DNA of 64,000 nucleotides from Hyphochytrium catenoides (Eukaryota; Sar; Hyphochytriomycetes; Hyphochytriales; Hyphochytriaceae). Below are positions 10,675-62,067 of this stretch, piece by piece (position 1 is the first letter of the stretch; every line of letters starts with the position of its first letter). The stretch spans positions 1-64,000 of the forward strand of contig FLMG01000549.1 of the NCBI GenBank assembly GCA_900088475.1. The letters run 5' to 3'. The notes below the pieces were generated by a model. The model saw nothing but the letters and a program-made list of their open reading frames with translations. It was not told where the DNA came from and searched no databases. Both the position numbers and the translations under genes were made by a program.

Positions 10675-12555
10675 TCAAGGGGCAGTGGCCTGGACCTGCT
10701 GGACAGCTCGACGCTTGAAGCGGATGGTAGGGTGTCCTTGCGGACCAACTACCATAGAGGTATAGTCATGCTCGGGAAGCTTGTCCTCACCCTTTTCCAT
10801 GTCGAGCTTCTGCAAGAGAGACACCAAGACAGTCTTCAGTTGCAAGTATGCATACTGTTGTCCCACGCAAGCATGCATGCCACCGCCGAAGCCAATGAAC
10901 GTGAAGGGCTTCTTGTCCTCCTCTCTGTCTGGTCCAAAGCGATCCGGATCAAATATCTCAGAGTCCTTGAACTCAGGGGCTACCCTGCCCCCAACAGCTG
11001 GAGATACACCCACAAGATGTCCAGCGGGAATTACCATGTCCTTGTAGTAGAGATCCTTCCTTACCCGGCGAAAGAGAAAGATGAGTGGAGGGTGCATCCG
11101 CAGAGTCTCTTTGATGCAGCGATGAAGGTACTGCAGCTTGCCGAGGTCTTCGTACGTGACTGGGCGGTCTCCCACCACTTCTGCAACCTCCTTCCTAGCC
11201 TTCTCCAAGGCACCAGGGCTGTCCAGTATGTGTAGCAAAGTCCAGATCGCAGTGGTGGAGCTCGTGTGCTGTCCCGCAAAGAGCAGCGCGATCATAAGTC
11301 CCGCGACGTGCGAAGGCGGAATTGGCTCCTTTGTGTCCTTATATGTTGCATCCAAAAAGGTCTGCAGAATATCCTCTTTCTTGACTCCCTCCTCTCGCCG
11401 CTTCGCGATGACATTAGCAAAAAGCTTTGTGAGCTCCTCACGCGCTCTGTCTCGCTTCTTGTGGAGCGGAATAGGTAAGTACGGGAAGAAGACTCCAACA
11501 GGTGTGCACCCATTGTCAAGGTCATGGTAGAGAGAGGTGACCTCATCGTAAAGGCTCTCCCTAATCTCGTCGCCCATCAGAGCACGTGCTGCACAATTCA
11601 TGACCAGCTCGACAAGGAACTCCTTGAGATCCAGGGTGCCTTCTTCCGGTAACGTCTCTACATGGGCCAAGGTCTCCCCAATGATCTTGTCCACATAGGT
11701 CTTCATCCTGCTATTACGAAGACCCGTTGCCATTATTTGCATCTAGAAACGAATGCGCACGACCGTCGGTGGGTCAGTCATTATCAATGAATACGCTATA
11801 CACAGCAAGATAGGACCTCAAAAGTCGGACTAGGGCGTAATGCAAAGCAAATAAGGATTAGCAGAGCGCAAGAGCTACTTAGGCAACGGCAAGTTTTGAA
11901 GCTTGGCCAAAGGTAACGGTAGCACATTTTCTACCCACGAAAGAAGCATAGGCAGATAACAGAGCTTTTTACCTGCTGTAGCCTCCGTTTTAGGGGCGCA
12001 TCAAAAACGATGCCCTCGCCAAAGACCGGCGTCATAAACTTGTAGGGGTCCCCTTGGTCCAGCTCTTCGTCCGTCGCTCTGAACGCAACCGCCTGCGCTT
12101 CCGGACCCACAAGGAAAGTAATCTTCTCAAAAGCAAAGTCAAGCGTGAAGATATCCCCGTACGCATAGTACACTGTGATTCAAAAAGAACAAAATCGGGA
12201 GTCCCATAGGGCGAGTTATAGTGGTTAGATACTCACCCTGGAGAGTTGAAACAGCTCAGAAATGTGTCAGTGTCTTACGTTCTGTTATGTAGCCCACTGG
12301 TGATCGGCAGAAGTTTAGAAAGGTGCCCAAATACGGGATGGTAGTATGTACAACGGGGGGGAGCTTCCCTTGCACCTTACGCCCACGCATCATCACGCTC
12401 ATAAGCACCGCCACAGCAGCCACCACGAGGACGGTGACAATAATAGGGCGAAAGTTCTCAGCGAAGATTAGGGAAGCATCCGCAAATACATTCTCGATTA
12501 CCGTCCGCATGGTCTCCGAAGAGATAAGGATCGCAACAGAGAGGATCAGCATCAT
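10675..12555 (-). CDS. CYP51: Sterol 14-alpha-demethylase, cytochrome P450 family 51
   Basis: Three exons join in frame: 12555-12279, 12172-11973 and 11742-10675, giving 514 residues, normal for CYP51. The enzyme removes the C14 methyl of lanosterol, obtusifoliol or cycloartenol-derived sterols in the endoplasmic reticulum. An N-terminal hydrophobic anchor is followed by PPVV and the CYP51-type B' region (YKFMTPVFGEGIVFDAP). The I-helix has AGQHTSSTT near residue 315, the CYP51 signature AGQHTSS. The ExxR motif is KETLR near 370, and the haem-binding loop is FGGGMHACVG with the Cys ligand near 451. The first in-frame ATG is at 12555; codons before it are open but lack ATG. The ATG at 12552, or a later one, is also possible. 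Family assignment is very secure; the preferred sterol cannot be told from sequence here. Confidence 0.95.
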
Positions 12556-25870: not shown

Positions 25871-26935
25871 CTAGTCAAAGTTCTTGTGCTCCATATCAAT
25901 CCGATCCTGCAAGCTCCATTGCCGCATGAAGATAAAGCTAAGCAGCAGCTTAGTGTAACTCTTATAGGAATAAAGGCCATTATAGTACTCCGGAGCCTCC
26001 GCCCTCACTTTTGGGAGCTTGTTCCACGGCACAGAGGGGAAATCGTGGTGCTCATTATGAAAGCCTATATTGAAGGCAACCCGATTGAGTGGGCCATAGT
26101 AGGAGTACGTCGTCTGAAAGGGCTGGGTCGGGTAGTGTTCCTGAATCCATCGTGCGCCTAGGGGATGGAGCCCAATGGAGAAGAGAGAGGCCAGTAGCAT
26201 GTAAACAAGCACTTCAAGCCCCAGATAGTGCCAGATGAGGTAATTACAGCTTAACCCTACTGCGGTATTTGAGGCTATCCAAAGCAGTTCCTTCTTTGAA
26301 GGGATTTTGTATGTGTAGATGGCCAGCCGGAAAGACTGAATGAGCCAGAAAAATGCAAGCCAGAGTGCCTTCCGCACAGGACTATTACCCACAAATCTGG
26401 CCTCTACGTCGGTGGGAACGTCAGGATCTCGGTGTACCTGGTTGAGTTCAATGTGGTGCAGAATGTGATAAAAGCGGAAGGTCATCGCTGTGGGGATGAT
26501 GTGTGGGATGTTAGAGAAGATCGCACCGGCCCGATTTAGGGAGACGCTCTTGAAGACTAGATTGTGCGCGAAGTCGTGAATGAGAACCCAAAGGGCATGG
26601 TCAACGACCGCTCCCACAAAGTAGCAGGAGAGTAAAGCACCCCAGATGGGCAGGTAGGAGGTGCTCAGAACGGCGACCACCAGCTGAAAGGTCACCAGGA
26701 TCACGGAGAGGGCGGCAGTGAGTGGATTCCTTCCACAAAGGCTGGCTATACTAGGATGTGACTTCAGGATCTTTGTCCTCCTGTCTCCATGAGGATGGCG
26801 CTTCCTGCTTTTCCTCTCCATCTCCTCCTCCTCTCCCTCAGTAGAGATGCGATTCTTGTCGGACTTCATGGTGGAAATCTCCGAATGAAGAAATGCAGCT
26901 TTGGAAGCCGCGGACTTGCAATCGAGCTCAACCAT
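25871..26935 (-). CDS. Sphingolipid delta-4 desaturase (DES1-like)
   Basis: A single exon of 354 codons from the first in-frame ATG at 26935; later ATGs at 26869 and 26821 are also plausible. The family desaturates the sphingoid base of dihydroceramide in the ER membrane. The N-terminal block HPHGDRRTKILKSHPSI matches the DES lipid-desaturase N-terminal region. Four or so hydrophobic segments carry three His boxes: HDFAH near residue 120, HILHH near 157 and HNEHH, followed by DFP, near 293. TYSYYGPLN just before box 3 is typical of DES1. Box 1 reads HDFAH where most family members have HExxH; the His pair is kept, so activity is still expected. Whether it is a C4-hydroxylase, a delta-4 desaturase or both cannot be told. 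Confidence 0.9.
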   Translation of the reverse strand: MVELDCKSAASKAAFLHSEISTMKSDKNRISTEGEEEEMERKSRKRHPHGDRRTKILKSHPSIASLCGRNPLTAALSVILVTFQLVVAVLSTSYLPIWGALLSCYFVGAVVDHALWVLIHDFAHNLVFKSVSLNRAGAIFSNIPHIIPTAMTFRFYHILHHIELNQVHRDPDVPTDVEARFVGNSPVRKALWLAFFWLIQSFRLAIYTYKIPSKKELLWIASNTAVGLSCNYLIWHYLGLEVLVYMLLASLFSIGLHPLGARWIQEHYPTQPFQTTYSYYGPLNRVAFNIGFHNEHHDFPSVPWNKLPKVRAEAPEYYNGLYSYKSYTKLLLSFIFMRQWSLQDRIDMEHKNFD

Positions 26936-27311
26936 CCTGACACCTGATCCCAGTTCCTCAACTCGGTTAGCTCTGGGGTGATAAGTCCACTGCAACGTGG
27001 AGCCAACTCGGTGAGTGTGATGTGTGCGGCTTAAAGGAGAATAGCTACTGGCTTAGCCCCCGCAGATCCCAATTATGCTGACCACAAATAGAGCTGAGAT
27101 TTGCTGCGCTAGCAGGCCTGTTCTGTCCTGTCCAGAGCTTCCTGAATGAAGAGGCATGCACTATGTCCTTTTGAGTGACGACGAGTTAGGAAAAGACAGA
27201 TTCACTTCTGTGTAGCTGCTGATCGAGAAGACCAGAAACGGGTCACTCGGCACAAGATGTAGAGCTCACTTATCTACAAAGGCAAAGCTTTCCCAACAAA
27301 AGGTCAATCTT

Positions 27312-47194: not shown

Positions 47195-50100
47195 TTATAG
47201 AGATGTTCTCCTGTTCTTCCGAAGTCTCATCCTGGATCCTACCAACTGACTCTCGTCGATGTCGAGGATACCATCCATTCCAAAGTCTTCACCACTCCCA
47301 GCATCTAGAGAGGATCTACTAATGGGAGAGTCGTAGGTGCCTCGAACTTTGGAAGGAAGGTCTCGGAGAGCCTATAAGGAACAACAAAGCGCCAAAAAGG
47401 TGTGGGGAAGGTCAGATACAAGTCGCAAGGCAAAAATACATCAGGACGGTCCAAGACTGATTTCGTTCATAGAGTAATAAGTTGCAAAAGAGCCTAGAGT
47501 CCTTGGCCCACGATTGCGGAGTATTGATTAAGAATGTGCGTGGACAAGTGAATGAGGACCCTGATCACGAGCACGCCAATACCAGGCCCATGAGTATACG
47601 CGGAATCTCAATTTATGCAAGGTATGGGTAAAGTAAGGGAAGAGGTGTCAAAAGGCCCCGCACTCCTACCTGTTCTTCCGTAACTCTATCGGACAACCAA
47701 CAAATGAGGGCCTTCATCACAGGCTGGTAGTTCTCTGCCAGCTCTACCAACTCTTCCCGATGCATATGAAGAAGAATTGTAGGCGACAATGCCACCGCGG
47801 AAGTTAGGTAGGTTGCTTCAGGGACGATGGACATCTCCCCAAAGCAACCCCCCTTAGCTAGGGAGGCAACGACTGTCTTTGGAATGGTCGGAGGGACGTC
47901 GGACAGCAGGCTTTCAGCAGAGCCTTTTGATGGGGAAGATGCCAATAAGTTTTCCCTGATAACCGATATCTCTACTGCTCCTTCTACAATTATGTAGATG
48001 TACTCAGCAGCCTCTCCTTCGCAGTAAATCATCTCCCCTGCTTCGTACATGCGCTCATGAGAAATTTTTGAGACAATTGTCACCTAAACGCAGAAATGGT
48101 TAGACCGATAAAGGAATAGAATGAGGCGGGAGGACGGCCGGGGACTGAGGCCCCGATGCTAATAGAAGAATCAGCCTAAAGCTGTAGACAGACTACCGCA
48201 AAAAGATGTACCCTTGCTGGAGACACCCAGTAGTGCAGGAGGGTGTTGGTAGTACGAAAGGTTAGCTATTAATTGAGCAACGAGCAGCCAGCATTATTGA
48301 GCAGAGATAAAACTCTGGGCAGAGAGTTCCTGTAAAAGTTCAGCAAAAGAATACAAAGGAGCCTTGAGGTATAGAAGATTCTGTGAAGCTTGGAGTAAGA
48401 GGATGGCGAGGGACTACGAGGATTATGAGACCTGAGCATCATTTAATGCCTGGAAGAGGGAAGAACCCTTCAGACAGAGGCATTTTTCCAAGGTAGAAAA
48501 CGAGGCACCAGGTCCGGCGAGCTGGTATTTTATATTTGGCGAGGGAACTTCGCCGTCCGATATTTCAGGATTATGAGAAGTTGAATAACAGTCATCAGGG
48601 CTTAAGGAAGTAGCTCCAGCCATATGGACTGAGCGAGGGAGCCCAAACTGCAGTATTACAAAAAGAAGTGGGGAACATGAATAAGTTCGCTCGATGAAGG
48701 CAAAAGACGGACTCTACCCAAGTCCGAGGGAATATGTCTCCCTTGCGGGGCTAACTTACCAGCAGTCCTGCCGACCGATCGTGTGTCTGATGGTGCCTCA
48801 TCAGAAGGAAACTATCTTGTCTCTCCAAAGCGGAATGGATGGGACGGGCTGTCACCGTTAAGGATCGCGGCCGATTGTTCTTACAACCGCGGAAAGCCAT
48901 TATCAGGGAGGTAAAGAAGTCGGAACATGGACAAGGAAGTAAGTCAGTCTATCAGTCCAAGATAGGTCGAACCAGCGGCAGTGACCTTATTACCAGTAAG
49001 GGCTGACCGCCTTGGTAGGGACCAAGTTATAACCTTTCATTAAGCCCCTCCCTCTCGTTGTCAGCTGTTCATACCTTGGCATCCATACAGACTGCCTGGT
49101 TACCATAAGTGGGAGCCTTTGGCGGCTCCCACGCTCTATCAGCATCACCAGAAGTCATCTTAGTAGGGCTACTCTGCGAATGACCTCGTCCCTCCTCTTC
49201 ATGGTTCTGGACTGCGGACGTCTCTGCGGCTTGTCGGCCTTCCAACTTCCTGTACGTATCTGCACCGAAAAGAGATCTTTCGTAGCCTTCATGAGTCAAA
49301 CTCACTCTGAGGATGGTGCCCTTTTCTCTGACCCCAGTCTACTCAGAATCATGACGAGAGCACAGATCGCATTCAACCGCCTTCAGAAAAGGTACCCAAT
49401 CAACAAAATTCGAGAACGCAGAAGTTGCGTTGACACCAGTCTCCTGATCACTTGCCCTTCTTACCTTCTGCGGCTCCGACCAAGAACTTCCAGGAACGTT
49501 CTAGCCGCCATATCCACCTTAGCGGCGAGTCTTACTTTCTGGGTTAAGTCGCCACTCTCAGGCTGACGAGAAACGACGCTCTGTTGCCTTATCATGCGGC
49601 TCATACGCTTGTTTTGCAAGTCTTGGAAGGAGCTGCAGAACGGAATTTTGGTTTCAGACTTGGCGGAGTACGGAACATCATTCCATTCCCATGTTCCCTT
49701 CATCTCTCGTTCTCCATTATAGATAAACATGCTGCCAGGAGAGCTACCTCACTCCGGATTAAGTCTCACTCAGTCATGGCAGAAGAATTAGGCTGGTTTT
49801 GGATATGGGCCTCCCTTGGTGAGGTTACCTCTTACCTTCCAGTGGAGGGCGACACCCTGGGTTGATGGAGGCTAGTGGGGGTCAGAAGTGGAACTGCTGT
49901 ATAAGGAGTAGGATGTTGGTCTGAAAAGTTTCCCTCAGCATATGCTTCTATGTCAAGCTGGTCTGACCTTCAATTGGCATGGTGCTGTCAGAGTCGTTTA
50001 CATTCCTAAGAACCTCAGCCTGCAGCTGAGTTGTGAGCATCCCCAACACGCCCCGTGTGATTGGGACTGAAGATGTCATTAACTCTTCGAGGGCAGTCCT

Positions 50101-53100
50101 CGTGACCCCAAGCAAAATGCAGTCGGTCAGAGCGGTCACCGAAGCTGAGTAATTGCCTTTCGACAACCGCGGAGAAGACGAATTGTATGTTATATGGAGT
50201 CATAGGCGGCAGAGACCCCAAGACTAAGCAGATAGATGAGCACTAGAGTGATTCTTAGGCATTGATAGCGCGCAGTAAGGACCGCACATAAGAGATGGGA
50301 GGAGAAGTGCCTCACCAAGGTGGGTAGAGAACTGGGCGAGTGCCATATCGCCAACGCAGTCACCGGTCCCAGCGACAGCATAGACCTGAGGCCCGCGATG
50401 AATCTTTGCTTCCCCAGAGGCGATGACGAACCTATGATGGGCGAAGAATAAGGGAACTGGACTACATTCAGCACATAGGTGATAAACATATCAACGCGGT
50501 GACAAAGAAAAAAGAGGCTTTAGAGGTGCTTGTGATGTTCAGCAGGAGTCAAAATCACAGGTAGGGGAAGAGAGGAAAGATCTTATCCGTACATATGGGA
50601 CGCGATAGTCCCTTCCGCGATAAAGGTGGTTCCCGCGCACACGTTTTTCTGAGTCACTCGAGGGGCCACGCTTTCAAGAAGCTCCTTGACCTATCGGATA
50701 AGAAGGAAAAGTATACAGGGAGATAGTACCATGAGACTTGTACAAGGCGCTAGGGATTTAAAGCGCAAATGATAGGACTACTTTAGAGAGGTGACGATAA
50801 CGCTCCATTCGCCACACCTAGTTCATAGCGACGGATGAGTAAACCTACCTCGACGTTTCTGAAGACAGGAGAACTTCTCATAGAGTGAGCAATCTCACAT
50901 GAGGTTAGCCAGTAAAAATTTTCATCTTCCGCATCTCTGGAAGTGGATGATAAAGGAGGCTGCACCTCGCTCTTTTCCAGTATTTCTCGGAGAGGTTTTG
51001 ACATCCTCTTCATAACTTCCGTCTTCCGCCTGCTTTCTTGTTGTAGAAGGGCGACGACTTGTTGTTCTCCATCTAACTTCTCAACTGGGAGATCGAGAAG
51101 AAGTTCAACTTCTGAGGTTTTAAGTGCAAACTCTACCGCTAGAAGTCGCAATAGCGGATCTGCACCTGCGATCCAGGTGGAAAGCAGGGAGGCTTTTGCC
51201 TACAATAGAGAGATACCGAAAGCAAGATTGAACCGCGAGTAAGAGAGGGTATAGTAAACGTTCAAAGTACCGCTTAGCTCATGCTCTAGCTGGTTGCAAA
51301 GGAGCAATAGAGAGGTCAACATCGAGGTCAATAAAGCTTCAGTACTGGAAAGAAAAAAAAATCCCCAAAGCTTATGTATGACAGGCAATGTTTTACCTCC
51401 TTACTATCATCGAGGACAGGATAGAGGTCAATCGCCTTTGCAGCCAGCCTCCTACGGTCCCGCTCCAGCAGAAGGGGAAGGAGGAGACTTCGCTGGCGCT
51501 TGGTCACAAGACTCTCAAGGACCTCCTGCACACTAGACAACACCTGGGACGCATAAAGGTTCAGCAAGATGCGGGCAACCGGTCTATTCGGCCATGGTAG
51601 CCATGGACATGAGGGTAAAACGCTGAGGGGAGGACTTAAAACTGATAGATCTAGGGAAACGATACAAAGCAGGACCGCAGTAGCCTGGCCTCCATCGGGT
51701 AACCGAATCACTATTGTCTCACCTCCTGAGAGTCAGTGTTGATAGCTTCCAGCAGAAGATTAACGTTGAACTGCTTTGGAAAATTTGTGGAAAGTAGTCT
51801 GAAGGCCACCCGGACAGCAATCACACTGATCTGCTCGATATATGCAAGGAGTAGAGGTAGCTGAAGAGCTTGCTCCTCGTCGCTGCCTTTCATTTCACCG
51901 CTTCTTATCGGGAGATTTAATGGGGCTAGACGGACTCCTCGTGCAGAAGCTAATCTTCCACTTATTTCCTCATTCTCAGTGAAGCCTTCTTTTGATAGCA
52001 AAGGTCAGTTGGAATAGAAGGTGCAGCCTCAGGGAGAAGAGAATGGCGCAACAGACAGCAGAGAGTCCTATAAACGACTAGCTTGATGGACACAGGAGAT
52101 TATCCTTCTGCCCTTCCTCTAACTTGGACATCTCAAAGTTTCACTCGCTTCCCCGTCTCTTGTGAAAAGCTGCGATAAATAGTTCAACAAACCTTCTCTT
52201 CCAGCTTCGTCAAAGGCTTTCCAAAATTTCCAAAATAAATAGTGTGTGTGCTTGGCAAAGTAGGCCGTCCGCAGAGCCACAACATAAAGAGCCTGCAGTC
52301 GCCGTATCTGCTCGCCCGAAAGGTCTGTGCACTCTGTTGTTGTCAGATACTTCACCAAGGCTCCAGCTACTTCGTCTGATATGATCAGACGGCGCTCAAT
52401 ACAAGCCGCGACTCTATCGCTCTCCTTAGTAGAACCTTCGTGGCTTTCCAGTTCCCTTTCGCACTTCCCTTCCCTTCTCTGTATCTCCTGCGGTTCTTTG
52501 CCTTGCGGATCGATACTACAGTCATCCGGCTGCTTACTGCTACATCCTGATATTCGTCCGGCTGATGTCCGTTTTTCTCGCTGTATACTTCTATCTGCGT
52601 CAAATTCCTCCTCGTGCAAAATTTCCAGCATAGATAGGAAAGTGTCTATGGTCGGACGCGGAGGAAATATACCGGTAGAGAGCATTCGGATGGCCCCTAT
52701 GACCGCCTCAGGAGTGTCATAGTTCCCGTCCTCCCAGCTCAGCTCAGTCGCTGAAGCCCATGTGGATGAGGCTTCTTTCTCTGTTCCGCCAAGGCAGGAA
52801 CTTCGTAAGCCTGGGCGGTGAGAGAGACGAAAGTCGCAGTGAGAAGAAATTCACTGCGATGGGCAAAAACTTGGGGAAGTTGCATGGGACAAAGATGAGA
52901 GTTTGACACCTCTGAGAAAACGAGAGCAGGTGAAGCGTCCATGCCTAGCCCCATTCTTGTAGGATTGCATCATTGTCCCATTACCTTTTCGTTCTTCGTC
53001 AGCCATGTCACCAGCCATCTGCTTGTGGACTGCTTGGGTTAGAAAGGGAATGAGATAGCGCCAGACCTGCACCGGGTCCAACTGAGAGAGCCCAGTTATA

Positions 53101-56100
53101 GCTGACGCTCGGAAAAAAGGGTCGGCAAGCTACGAATGGAGTGAGAAAAGATTCTGTGAGGTGGAGACAGCTGCAGATTACAAATATTCAAGAGAATCAG
53201 CAGAGATCCCATGTCACCCAATGCCCTGTATCTCCCTATGCTTGTCTGACATGGGGTTGACGAGAAGATAGTACCCAAGTGATGACGAACTTCGGGCTCA
53301 ATAAGTCCTCACGATCATCCAACGCTAGTGCGGAAGAATTACCTTCTCAACTAACGCCGGTATAAGTATAGGTGACAACCTAGTCGGTGAACGACATACA
53401 TCCAGCGCGGCGGCAACCACTCTCTTCGTGGGATGATGAAGCAGATACACTAGATATCCGTTGCTGATGAGCTCTGGAAGGAAACTGCTCACAAGCTGGG
53501 TAGAGGGAACAGCAGAGAAGAGATTGTCAGTTTATGCTGCAATGTCTCGGGAAGCGAGAGAATAGTGGCCCTTTGGGGAATAGAAGCGGGCATGACCAGA
53601 AGCCAACTAGCCCATGTCGAGAATTTATCAAAGGCTTGTAGCGAAAGGACCCAACAGAACATCATTAATAAAGGTCTAGTGGTGGTGCATAAGATATCTT
53701 CGTGCTTGAAAGCTGCCGCATGTGAAGCTGACGGATAACTGAAGATATGGTGCGTACTTGCCGCAAGAAACAATAATTAAATTTGGCATTTTAGGGGAGG
53801 TTCCTATTCATTACCTGCAAGCAGATGACCTGACCCTCAGGATCATCATCATTGTGTAATAACCTCTGTATGCAAAGGTGTGCACCTTGGTGCATGAAGT
53901 GCGTTAGTTTGAGCAGTCCTACCGCGGCTGCCGCTCGCACTCGCTTTCTATTTGGGAAATTTGTAAGTCCTGAGCGACCTTGGCGTTCCCCTTTACAGGG
54001 TGGAGGAAGGTCTAGAGAAAAGTGTATAAGTTCCAGCTGCCTAACTCGAGAAGAGGGAGATACTAGGAAAGGAGACCTCTAGACATCCATATGAAACGTG
54101 CTACATAGCAAATGCAATTAACAATAGAATGATCGTGTTAGACGGTAAGCGGCCCATGCCTGACATGGTGTCACCATCAGGGTTGGACGGGTGGGAGGAT
54201 GAGGTAGTAGGTGAGACTAACCATCGGCGGCCAGATAATGCTCCAGACAACTTCTAGCGGCCTCATGTTCCTCCCAGCTGACTCCTGAGGTCATATGTCC
54301 TAGACATTGAGGCTATCAGTCTCCAACTGTTCCATAAACTTGGACAATAGTGGAAGTACATTGTTCAGGAAAATTAGGCCTCAAAGTTTGCAGGACAAGA
54401 TAGCACCCGCAAATGAGGATTTGGTATCCCGTTAGCCAGTTTTATGGTGTAAGACAGCGCAGATGTTGAGGCCAGAAGAGATAAGTCTCACCTAAAGCTA
54501 TCATTGCAGCGACACCTATACGCGGCCCCGTTGAGACCATGCCTTTTGACTCTGCCAACGCAATGAGGTCTTTTAACGTAAAGATTCCTACAAAACACAG
54601 GCCTTCAGAGTCACCTAGAGCAATGACCAGACTTTCTCCTATCTACCATGCAGCCGTAAAAGTATATCCAACTATAATAAAATGAACCGTCTCATTCTGG
54701 AAACTCCTTGTCGGTACTTTAGAACTAAAACCCAGGGAAGGTGGTGCGCCGGAAAGCGCAAATTTTCACCAAAGATGGTAAACAGCAAACCCACAGAGGA
54801 AAGTCTAGCAGGTAAAAAGAAAAAAAGGTCGCGATGGACCATTACTGAAACAAACTCACCTTCATTGACAAGCGGGAGTGATCTTCCATCTAGATCACCC
54901 TCTGCAGAAAGACTCAGCATGAGAGCTAGATTTCTTTTATCATAAAGCCTACCAAAAGCTCTTGGAAGGACAGAGTCTTGCTCCTGGGCGTAGAGGATGG
55001 CCTTTGTGTGGAGTTCCAAAATTCGTAAACGGGAATGAACCGGCGTTACTCTCTTGTCAGACTCTCTACTTTCATCTCCTACTTGGTAGAATAGGTCCCG
55101 CAACTCCTTGCGAAAGTGAGAAATTAGCTCTGGAGAAAGGGTCTCCAATATGAACCTATCATCGAGATAAATAGACAGGAAATCACAATTAGGCGCGGGT
55201 CTAGGCTAGAGGAGAACTTAGGATTAGAGTTAGCTATAACTCTCACAAGGTTGGAGAGAGAGGCACCCAGTGAGATCAGCCAAAATATGAAGGGCCAGTA
55301 TTTGTTTACGATATACTTAGTCTTGGGTTTCAAGCCAAATGAGGTTCCAGGTCCTATGAACGACGACAGGGAGAGGACAAAAACTTTTACCTTTTCTGGT
55401 TGGTATTGCCCTTCCTCAGGGTTTCTCTGACCAAAGCGACCTGGTCGGCAGAGATATCTAGTATTGGTGATTGGAAGTCGATATGTCCACGCTTGAGGGC
55501 GGAGTAAAACTCCATCGCATATGCACGAGTGGCAGGGTAGGTATCCACCTGGGACGGGTGAAATGCGGGGTGCATATTTGTGATCAGAAGAGAAAAAGGG
55601 ATTGGTGCTCTATCACTACTGAGGATGGTGGTGGGTGAACTCGACTGATAGTAATCTCAAGTATCAGTTAGGTGTGGAAGCTAAGGTGGGGCACAGTTAG
55701 CAGTTGACAGGTCTCACCAGCCAGAGCAAGCCCAAAACTCCTATTAGAACCCCAACAGGCCGGGCGTCTGCAACAAATGTGGCCAAGACTAAGGATAAAC
55801 CCGCTCCTACCACCTAAGTGATGGAAAGTTAGAGAGAAGGTCAGCGACGTAGATGAGGGTTCTGTTCTCCCACCCTCCCTCAACATACCCGTGAGAGGGA
55901 TCTAAAGTACCCTGTTATAAAGGGTTTGATTGTGACTCGGTCCTCCGTACTAAGAGGAAGCCAAAGGAGTTCCCGTGTAGTGTTAAAAACAGCATATGTG
56001 GTCGCATTGTACAGCGCCCGGCTATAAATGTAACAAATCACAGAAGTTTACATTAGCAGGTAAGGCGTACAGAGGTACCAATCTAGAGAGCCCTAGCCAA

Positions 56101-57672
56101 ACCTTCCAATTAGCACTTCCACGGAAGGAGACAGCGACGTGAAGGTGCCGAATATGAAGATTGAAAAAGGTAAGCTGGCTACTCCAGACATTACTCCAAA
56201 TCTGGCATACATGGGACCTGATCAAGGCAACAATGAAAGCTGTGTAAGACAATACCGAACACAAGCCAAGGTTCTAACACTACCTGCCGCTGCTTGAAAG
56301 GGGATCATAAGGCAGCTCTGTAATCCATTGATGATGCCTGGAATAAAGGAGTCAATGCGCGTTGACTTCTCCTCTGGATGTACGAAGCCCTCCAAGATAA
56401 GGGACAGGCACAAAGCCCGGTGGGTGTGCGAGACCAGGAAATATGGTTTTTGACACAGAACAGAGAGAATCTCACCCAAGGTGCGCTTGACTGCTGTCTC
56501 GTTATAGGCTGAGAGTATGGCGAACTGGTTGAAGTCAATAAGGACGCGCTGGAATGCAGTTCCATAAATTAACACCCTCCATAACTTTGCGCAGTATCAC
56601 CCAAGCTTACCGCTACAGTCGCGCAGAGCTCAAAGATGCACAGGTGATAAATATAAGGCCTCTCTCTGATGACAGACCATAAGGACATCGGCTTGTGACC
56701 ATCTAGATGACGGCGGGGAGCTACTAGGCGCGATTGTTAGTTCTGTTTGCAGAAGAAATGGCATTCTCAATTTCTCTTATGAACTTTAATCTCACCTTTG
56801 CTAGCTACTCGATGTGTGGGAACGGTGGAAGAGCTATGGGCTGACGTGACGGCAGGGACACCAAAGTGGAGTATTGTACCCATGAAAAGACACATGCCTA
56901 CGAGTGGTAGAATTATTGGAAAATGCGCTATTCAGCCTGACACCTAAGCAGCAAGCGGCACGGAATCTCACCTCCCATGAGCAAGAGGTTACTTCTCGTC
57001 TCAAGTTGCCAGTCTTCTAGATAGCGCACAAGGTAAAAGCCGGTAAAGAGGGTCCCGACTGTGGATCCCGTGCTGATAACTCCAAAAAAAGCTTTGCTCT
57101 CCCTCACCGTAAAAGATGCGCTGCCGATGCACAACAGGAGTTAGGTTGAGTGATCGGCTACATCATTTCCCACCCGTGTCCTCCAAAAACCTGCAAAAGT
57201 CCCAGAATTGCTGGCCCAGAAGTACATTCGCAATCTCCACTGCAATGTAGACACATGCAGGCGCAAGGGTAAATGATCTGTCTCGCTCAGCATATAGCCA
57301 GGCCCAAAGAAAGCCGTACAGAGCAACAATGAACCCGCACAGCCATGTCGCCACGCAGAGCTAGTTGCTTCCGTTAGCAAAGAACGGCAAATGGCTACAT
57401 ATACTTGATCGACCCACCGAGCCATAGGACTGCGTTAACGTAGCAATCCATTTGTTAACGTAACCTGAGATAGCCGCCACCACCAAAATGGCATAGGAGA
57501 TCTTATCCCTGCCATAAGACTTAATGAAGAGTGTATCTCTGGTGATAAAACCTAGAACAGCCAAGGCTGATTGAATAAATAAAAGAAAGATGAAGAATAG
57601 GATGATGATTGGCGTCTTCAGACTCGAGGGCCGATCTTCGGCAGTTATCCTCTCGGAGTTGGTATAGCCCAT
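47195..57672 (-). CDS. TLC-type (ATP/ADP translocase-like) transporter fused to helical repeats and two cyclic-nucleotide-binding folds
   Basis: About 25 exons reading right to left from ATG at 57672 (MGYTNSERITAEDR) to TAA at 47195. The first ~3 kb encodes roughly ten membrane segments in a TLC/NTT-like order: IIILFFIFLLFIQSALAVL, then FITRDTLFIKSYG, a block ending NVLLGQQFWDF, then SASFTVRESKAFFGVIST, comparable to the REaKrlFg block of TLC proteins, later ALYNATTYAVFNTTRELLWLP and LLWLV. A ~4 kb middle part of soluble amphipathic helices (SPELISHFRKELRDLFYQV and similar) looks like HEAT repeats. Two cyclic-nucleotide-binding folds follow, one around 50,450-49,990 (VGDMALAQ) and one at 48,080-47,670 (EGEAAEYIYIIVEGAVEI, CFGEMSIVP). 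The C-terminus ends RRTSL. One gene is favoured because frames and strand are continuous; a split into two genes remains possible. Confidence 0.7.
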
Positions 57673-60224: not shown

Positions 60225-61496
60225 TCACCCACCTTGTGATGCCTCCAATGAATCAAGCGCCTCTGGAAGCTCCCAGTCCAGTTGTCTACACAGCTCCTTG
60301 ACGATATCATTGCAGTTCCCCATGAGCTCTATGTCAAACTTGTTCGGCTGACCGACAAGTTCTCTGTTAATGAGTACTACCGGAACATGCGCAGGTGTCG
60401 CGAAGGCAATGCCTCTTACGGGATTGACTTTAAGCGACGAGCCCATCACAATGACAAGGTCTGCTTCCTTTAGGTCCTCTTCCAGCATCTCGTGGAAAAC
60501 TGACGGGAGCTTTTCGCCGAAAAAGATTATGTCAGGCTTCACTACCCCTACACCACACTCTTTGCACATAGGGACGCGCTGATTCATGACGTCGTCCCGA
60601 ATTGAATCCGAGTTGACTTTCAGCCCACATTCCATGCACGTTGCACTCTCAAAGTGACCATGGCAACGTAGGGCCTTCTCCCTACTCACTCCAGCTAGAA
60701 GCTCCAACCCGTCAATATTCTGTGTATAGTTCCGGAGCAGCTTTCCTTTTTCCTCCAGCATGCGAATAAAGTAGTGAGACGGACTTGGTATGTACTTTGG
60801 CGGCGATGCCGGAAATAGCTCTCTTGCAAAAGCAAAGAATGGCCTTGGATTTTCTCTGAAGAAGCTAAGGTCAAACATGCTCTGAGGGCTTGGCAGTCTA
60901 TACTCCTCTAAGCGGCTGTAGATGCCATTCTCTGATCGGAAGTCAGGGATGCCACATGAGACCGAGATACCAGCACCCGTTAGCACTAGTATCTTCTCAG
61001 ATGTCTTTAGGAGCTCAACCATATCGTCCAAGGTGTTCACCGACATAAGTTTCTCCCGTCCACGGTTCTGATATTCGAGCAGCCCGATGCCATGAGAAAT
61101 AATAAAAACCCATAGTTCCTCCTCAGACGGGCTGTGTTCGCCGGAAGCCACAGAAAGACCAAATATCTTGAGCAAGTCTTTAGGATTGGTTCCTTTCTGC
61201 TTCTGGCCAATAAGCCATTCGTGAAAGCTCATGCTTTCGTCCTCCGTCTCGTCCTCATTTGCGGAAGCGGGAGGCACCTCTAAATTTTCCACATTGTCCT
61301 GAATACTAGCATTCGAGTCCAGACCTGAGACGATACGATCTGCGCCATATTCCTCACTTTCCGAACCCGCTAGGCTCTCAAAGTTACCAGTAAGACTCTT
61401 TGAGCAAATGGCTTCTGCATCTTCCTCTATCCGCTGCCGCTTCACTAGGAGGTCAGGGTGGCCTTGGCCGGCTTCGCAGGCCCTTCCACCCTCCAT
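60225..61496 (-). CDS. SIRT1-type NAD-dependent protein deacylase
   Basis: A single exon of 423 codons from the ATG at 61496. Class I sirtuins remove acyl groups from lysines using NAD. An acidic N-terminal region of about 125 residues precedes the core. Core motifs are LTGAGISVSCGIPDFRS near residue 172, RNYTQNIDGLE near 256, catalytic His279 (CHGHF), a zinc site at C287, C290, C311 and C314 (CMEC, CKEC) and MGSSLKVNPV near 351. Just before the core, EEELWVFIISHG and SVNTLDDMVELL match the SIRT1-specific helices, and PSPQSMFDLSFFRENPRPF is also SIRT1-like. All residues needed for catalysis are seen. Nuclear location is inferred from the SIRT1 type; the stretch KRQRIEED near residue 19 may be a nuclear localisation signal. 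Confidence 0.95.
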   Translation of the reverse strand: MEGGRACEAGQGHPDLLVKRQRIEEDAEAICSKSLTGNFESLAGSESEEYGADRIVSGLDSNASIQDNVENLEVPPASANEDETEDESMSFHEWLIGQKQKGTNPKDLLKIFGLSVASGEHSPSEEELWVFIISHGIGLLEYQNRGREKLMSVNTLDDMVELLKTSEKILVLTGAGISVSCGIPDFRSENGIYSRLEEYRLPSPQSMFDLSFFRENPRPFFAFARELFPASPPKYIPSPSHYFIRMLEEKGKLLRNYTQNIDGLELLAGVSREKALRCHGHFESATCMECGLKVNSDSIRDDVMNQRVPMCKECGVGVVKPDIIFFGEKLPSVFHEMLEEDLKEADLVIVMGSSLKVNPVRGIAFATPAHVPVVLINRELVGQPNKFDIELMGNCNDIVKELCRQLDWELPEALDSLEASQGG

Positions 61497-62067
61497 GGTA
61501 GTGGAGATAGTCAGACAGCAGCTAGCAGTTCCTCTCCCTGTCCCTTTGGACCTCCGTCAACTGGACGCTCTGAGGTCCTACTTGCGGATGTACGTTCTGC
61601 GTGTTCCAAAGACTTCGTCCTTTGATCGGCTCCACTCTGACATCTAGTCAATGCTTTCAATAGTTCTGGCGTGGCGTCTCTTAGCCTCGGTGCTCACATC
61701 AGAGCACTACAGCAGGAGCTGCACCAGGTCTGACAAACCCACGGCTCATTTTCAAACATTTCTAATATTGACAATGGTGTGACAAGCTTATTCTAAATCT
61801 AGACAAACTGTTGGTTATCGCGTTGGTAGCTGAGCTAACGTCCTTGTGTATGAATGGTGGCGCTGATGCGGCGATGATGGCTTCACAGCATCAGAAGCAT
61901 CAGAAGTCCTTTAGAAGAATTCGCCCCAAATCACACGGGAGGCGCCTCAATAGACCATCGAAGTGGCTTCATCGATAAAAGGTTAAGGCCGTGGTGTTAT
62001 CAACGCTCGCTCGATTAAGTTAACGAACGGTTGGCACCCTTGTGAAAGCTACGTGATTCTGCAAGCA
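61497..62067. promoter_or_regulatory. Divergent promoter region of the sirtuin and RPF2
   Basis: The 571 bases between divergent starts contain no supported exon. It must hold both promoters. A GATGATGG-type GAT-rich patch at about 61,863-61,900 is the only local pattern seen. Confidence 0.45.

Follow-up and report, generated by a model that had tools for sequence, protein, structure and literature searches.

The 64,000-nucleotide stretch of the Hyphochytrium catenoides genome analysed here (contig FLMG01000549.1 of assembly GCA_900088475.1, positions 1 to 64,000 of the forward strand; hereafter the window) carries on its minus strand, from 57672 to 47195, a gene whose predicted product joins a membrane transporter domain, a helical solenoid and two cyclic-nucleotide-binding (CNB) folds. 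Comparison with related proteins confirms that these parts occur together in one gene and, by similarity to these relatives, the gene is one colinear coding unit. We propose that it is probably a eukaryotic gene of the NTT-HEAT-cNBD family (cNBD, cyclic-nucleotide-binding domain), of bacterial origin, encoding a transporter with a regulatory or docking arm that answers to an input other than cAMP or cGMP. The 12-helix MFS-type NTT domain would exchange a nucleotide or a related metabolite by alternating access, across an internal or surface membrane, and the long cytosolic solenoid and the two CNB folds would act as the regulatory or docking arm. Because the arginine is missing in both CNB domains, this arm may answer to a protein partner or to some ligand different from these two cyclic nucleotides. 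We infer transport, its substrate, the membrane, the sidedness and the regulation by the arm; the observations comprise a coding unit that is colinear by similarity, the family to which each part belongs, the kinship with bacterial fusions, and the residues kept or lost.

A first protein search with a draft of the product returned P0001 (1526 aa, E 7e-94) and the bacterial-type fusions P0002-P0011. Searching again with a two-row profile brought in P0133-P0138, of which P0138 is from Peronospora farinosa, P0137 comes from EukProt, and P0136 is without its N-terminus. The window protein and its seven relatives (P0001 and P0133-P0138) are referred to below as the clade; P0001 and P0133-P0136 were counted as eukaryotic on the basis of their grouping with P0137 and P0138. 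When P0138 was compared by tblastn with the whole window (E<=0.01), all 10 pieces obtained fell within 47-58 kb, on the minus strand, ordered from the membrane part to the second CNB fold (CNB2), and 100 shuffles of P0138 gave no piece. At the same threshold P0137, P0001 and P0134 yielded 6, 6 and 5 pieces, respectively, none of them outside 47-58 kb. The initial annotation had proposed a single gene on one strand, spanning 47195..57672; its ends coincide with those of our gene model, and the colinear relatives and the ordered P0138 pieces bear it out. Searched exon-wise with P0001 (five candidates scored), the 42.5 Mb assembly gave three matches, all at the present gene, which thus appears to be single-copy as far as a search that weak or short-exon copies could escape has shown.

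The membrane part is encoded by 11 exons within 55391..57672 (57672-57418, 57360-57191, 57120-56972, 56897-56796, 56720-56611, 56548-56476, 56337-56284, 56217-56103, 56021-55889, 55813-55718 and 55548-55391). On a 1650-residue working protein, the Pfam TLC model PF03219 scored 29.6 bits, above its cut-off of 21, and a profile including the window row matched both NTTs of solved structure, PDB 9j3n and 9j3j (E 4.2e-29 and 7e-25). Sequence comparison therefore places the membrane part firmly in the NTT/TLC family, as had been read from its motifs. A separate search for the TLC family gave 0 matches, and 0 in control genomes as well, and is uninformative. The window membrane part shares its sequence family with the canonical AtNTT1 (9j3j, 9j3l, 9j3m) and C. 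pneumoniae NTT1 (9j3n, 9j3o), and the canonical NTT fold matches the structure model of the bacterial relative P0002. The canonical chains in the PDB comprise about 590-610 residues, and are thus too short for the solenoid and CNB arm; our literature search did not find a publication describing the NTT structures of 2025.

To compare transport residues, the clade (8 rows) was aligned with 88 bacterial rows (L025 and L086 were dropped and P0008 was omitted). In AtNTT1, the available portion of PMC3306366 assigns K155 probably to ADP binding, K527 to ATP binding and E245 to translocation, the K155R substitution already abolishing ADP binding. A manual count with an offset of 84 placed a Glu at 245 and a Lys at 527, and K155 was identified through the 9j3n row as the Lys of 'IPFIKFW', a column aligned with low confidence. 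The E245 position is acidic in 7 of the 8 clade rows and in 63/88 bacterial rows, the window protein having E. The K527 position, R in the window protein, is basic in 7/8 clade rows and in 12/88 bacterial rows, with E in 35 of the 88. The W and the K of two other motifs are kept in all 96 rows.

The soluble part is encoded by 10 exons within 50849..55155 (55155-54860, 54638-54492, 54299-54222, 54062-53815, 53495-53343, 53129-52985, 52810-52193, 51988-51723, 51543-51397 and 51199-50849) and is 33% identical to P0138 (180/538 positions) and 22-27% identical to the other six relatives. In an AlphaFold2 (AF2) model, the P0138 stretch displays about 30 helices and after them a CNB fold, with an all-helical solenoid part and a mean pLDDT (predicted local distance difference test) of 69. 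Foldseek matches of this model include AP2 clathrin-adaptor chains, with low TM-scores of about 0.2. The helical scaffold reading of this region thus appears to hold, with moderate confidence: the identity to P0138 and the helical model sustain the description of these exons as HEAT-like, and the HEAT profile score given below does not. With HEAT assigned through P0138 similarity and the helical model, the protein has NTT, HEAT solenoid and CNB in the family order.

Two CNB folds had likewise been noted, and PF00027 (cNMP_binding) supports them with 103.9 bits over three stretches of the working protein (cut-off 27.5). The first (CNB1) is split among three exons within 49968..50690 (50690-50593, 50431-50316 and 50156-49968), its PF00027 stretch covering residues 1303-1388; CNB2 is encoded by a single exon, 47670..48083, with 62.8 bits on the open frame 48083-47616. 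In mammalian PKA (protein kinase A), the cassette arginine neutralises the cAMP phosphate, as stated in the part of PMC10959531 available. We surveyed this cassette in 48 of 85 bacterial rows, those longer than 1000 aa, and in seven clade rows; P0134, whose membrane part is 91% like that of P0133, was left out. The bacterial cassettes have R in 45/48 and E in 39/48. The clade has the arginine in none of the seven CNB1 cassettes and in five of the seven CNB2 cassettes, the exceptions being the window protein, with Tyr, and Peronospora P0138, with Ala. The cassettes of the window protein thus differ from the G-E plus Arg pattern associated with cAMP or cGMP phosphate binding, CNB1 having G-D without Arg and CNB2 having G-E with Tyr. 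Because cassette lengths differ, the name of the residue at the CNB1 position depends on the alignment (His by MAFFT, Tyr by eye), the cassette being without arginine in either case.

With neither CNB fold keeping the phosphate-binding arginine, classical control of the window protein by cAMP or cGMP is unlikely. The initial annotation suggested a transporter under intracellular control; read as classical cyclic-nucleotide control, this suggestion is not supported. Major et al., in the accessible text of PMC5381601, propose cAMP control for the fusion family; applied to the window protein, cAMP made from ATP would bind the CNB domains and tune ATP uptake, or cGMP would gate the transporter. 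The cassettes of the bacterial relatives and the arginine retained in CNB2 of most clade rows speak for such gating. In addition, the fold matches of the P0002 model include SLC9C1, a sea-urchin exchanger that likewise carries a CNB domain, with TM-scores of about 0.1 that indicate no shared overall layout. The window and Peronospora proteins, without the arginine in both cassettes, speak against it, and we hold gating by cAMP or cGMP to be quite improbable here. Another comparison is with the trypanosomatid nucleoside-binding PKA regulatory subunits, in which, according to the same portion of PMC10959531, the CNB arginine is replaced, as in the window protein; these subunits have a ribose-holding Glu at the A202 position, where the window protein has A (CNB1) and S (CNB2).

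Several results weigh against our proposal of a transporter with a regulatory or docking arm. The gene model is predicted from the DNA and not from transcripts, and a tblastn search of the window with the bacterial P0002 gave two pieces, corresponding to the CNB folds only, the membrane part being unmatched. The NCBIfam model for NTP/NDP exchange transporters, TIGR00769, reached 22.7 bits, below its cut-off of 387.2, and Pfam TLC, at 19.8 bits, falls below the cut-off in P0137 and does not appear among the domains listed for either P0138 or P0001. HEAT also stays below the Pfam cut-off in the window protein, HEAT_2 scoring 17.1 bits (cut-off 27.7), as opposed to 41 bits, above the cut-off, in P0002. 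The K155 position has K in 0/7 clade rows (P0136 is truncated there) and in 1/88 bacterial rows; the ADP-site lysine being missing, an AtNTT1-type ATP/ADP exchange is doubtful and should not be assumed. Finally, our literature search found no functional study or measured activity for the NTT-HEAT-cNBD family.

The first of these points would suit a reading in which the membrane and CNB parts are separate, either as two adjacent genes or as a mis-assembled chimaera. Among the 80 bacterial fusion loci (L012-L091) kept from 527 matched stretches, the match lies within one open frame in 59 and extends beyond the main frame in 21, and some bacteria have a separate cNBD gene just downstream, as reported in the part of PMC5381601 at hand. 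Against this stand the relatives, single proteins whose parts follow the same order, and the matches, ordered on one strand from the membrane part through CNB2, and we consider separate parts very improbable. The missing K155, the great length of the soluble part and the degenerate CNB cassettes would in turn fit a transport-free scaffold or receptor, in which the NTT fold anchors the protein in the membrane or acts as a sensor, and partners are recruited by the solenoid and CNB folds. The W and K kept throughout the alignment, together with an acidic residue at the E245 site and a basic one at the K527 site, each in all but one of the clade rows, argue against this by suggesting a working cavity, and we regard it as unlikely. 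Taken together, the residues make the window protein an NTT-family member with a plausible cavity from which the ADP lysine is missing.

To place the gene among its relatives, we built a tree of the membrane part from 73 rows, including 55 of the 80 bacterial loci (L025, L029, L081 and L086 were dropped, 21 more were thinned, and P0008 was omitted); the root was not inferred, and canonical single-domain NTTs are not among the rows. Untitled bacterial rows were assigned to bacteria by their tree neighbours. A branch with 100/100 support sets the eight clade rows apart, which fits a single bacterial origin. They lie within a set of 35 rows (97/100); 27 of these are bacterial, 13 of them named Marinimicrobia. 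The initial annotation suggested an ancient gene transfer with introns gained afterwards; one bacterial gift and subsequent gain of introns is indeed the simplest story from this tree, its root not being inferred. P0138, the oomycete protein, is the nearest relative across the soluble parts as well as in a tree of 18 full-length rows. It is sister to the window protein in the best tree, a placement that is weakly supported (99/66 for the membrane part, 69/53 at full length). Approximately unbiased (AU) tests rejected two other placements, the window protein as sister to P0137 (p 5.6e-07) and its grouping with both P0137 and P0138 (p 0.0016). Apart from P0138, the clade has six relatives, which may be kin of oomycetes or otherwise. 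Five of them, P0001 and P0133-P0136 (1526-1586 aa), lie on contigs of 5-16 kb and may be intronless single frames, unlike the window gene with its at least 28 exons.

The architecture is already known, and the window gene adds a further member. The text of PMC5381601 available (Major et al. 2017) describes NTT-HEAT-cNBD fusions in bacteria and oomycetes, with a doubled cNBD and introns in the latter (13 introns in the Pythium gene), so that the novelty implied for an intron-rich eukaryotic fusion is not borne out. There, a Marinimicrobia sequence is closest to the oomycete fusions, with weak support, and among eukaryotes the fusion is said to be exclusive to oomycetes, as it is in the portion of PMC6995639 available; our literature search found the term NTT-HEAT in these two papers only. 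The window protein shares with P0138 (1496 aa, NTT-HEAT-cNBD-cNBD) the four-part order, the doubled CNB and the loss of the CNB arginine from both domains, at 32-35% identity in each of the four parts. Introns are likewise shared with the oomycete genes; the window gene differs in its at least 28 exons, compared with the 13 introns of Pythium, and in a membrane part only 35% identical to that of P0138. The bacterial fusions (P0002-P0011 and L012-L091) also combine an NTT, a HEAT solenoid and often a C-terminal CNB in one frame. They are about 1050 aa long with one CNB (P0004 has two), unlike the doubled CNB of the window protein, and mostly keep the cassette E and R and seldom have a base at the K527 site, whereas the window protein is without Arg and has a basic K527 site. 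AtNTT1 has K155, which the fusion family lacks. The survey of K155 and the CNB arginine and the six other clade relatives do not occur in the parts of PMC5381601 and PMC6995639 available.

A more elaborate joint reading has only a slim chance of being right as a whole. A single bacterial gift would have brought a cyclic-nucleotide-gated nucleotide transporter that eukaryotes recast. The CNB pair of the window and Peronospora proteins would have lost cyclic-nucleotide binding and would now sense another ligand, such as the transported nucleotide or nucleoside, or a partner protein. The transport site would have a basic residue at the ATP-site K527 (absent from 76/88 bacterial rows), and the gene would also occur in lineages outside oomycetes. 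In the fusion family a sensor fold is coupled to a nucleotide transporter. The obvious idea of cAMP gating is probably wrong for the window and Peronospora proteins. Bacteria, in which the cassette is mostly intact, are a better place to test it. Moreover, given the six further clade relatives and the present genome, the oomycete-only claim, as worded in the available parts of PMC5381601 and PMC6995639, calls for a recheck.

The hand model of the gene, predicted from the DNA, has at least 28 exons, all on the minus strand, from a start codon ATG at 57672 to a stop codon whose last base is 47195. Splice sites were picked by hand, aided by a simple dynamic-programming finder. The 24 exons from 57672 to 49968 join as a single open frame of 1422 codons, with GT donors at 24/24 exons and CAG or TAG acceptors at 21/23 (AAG at 2/23). 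An automatic finder model of 32 exons, which differs in the membrane part, was set aside because relatives align through this part in the hand model. The linker, 49968-48083, is partly resolved, and the 1650-residue working protein omits most of it. It probably includes an exon between CNB1 and CNB2 at 49465..49731, with uncertain borders (50% match to P0138 1235-1260), and one leading into CNB2 at 48432..48713, ending ...LFQALNDAQ (match to P0138 1291-1333). The last exon, 47195..47371, encodes a basic tail, RLRKNRRTSL, resembling that of relatives, followed by the stop. An out-of-frame, open, HEAT-looking stretch within 53342-53130 raised the idea of a pseudogene or frameshift, which was rejected; because relatives align straight across, the stretch is read as an intron. 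Exon 54638-54492 contains an internal 27-base GT...AG stretch whose removal leaves the frame intact, possibly a very short intron.

Among the surroundings, Rfam and tRNA scans of the window found none, and an exon-wise search for the rbcL family gave 0 matches. On the minus strand, 25877-27052 is a sphingolipid delta-4 desaturase frame; of its relatives among the best 120 listed, the nearest that are named are red algae (52-58% identity). It branches just outside them (window plus red algae 98/96, red algae alone 93/84), and is an odd neighbour of an oomycete-like transporter gene. Farther along the same contig, at about 97.5-99.4 kb (L008, 1-1836, plus strand), one open frame with an open 5' end combines a protein kinase (199.8 bits), two CNB domains (85.7 bits) and EF-hand-like stretches below cut-offs, and appears to encode a calcium- and cyclic-nucleotide-type kinase fusion. 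Two further minus-strand frames lie in the window, a cytochrome P450 at 10681-11742 (200.6 bits) and a SIR2 deacetylase at 60231-61556, whose best PDB match is SIRT1.
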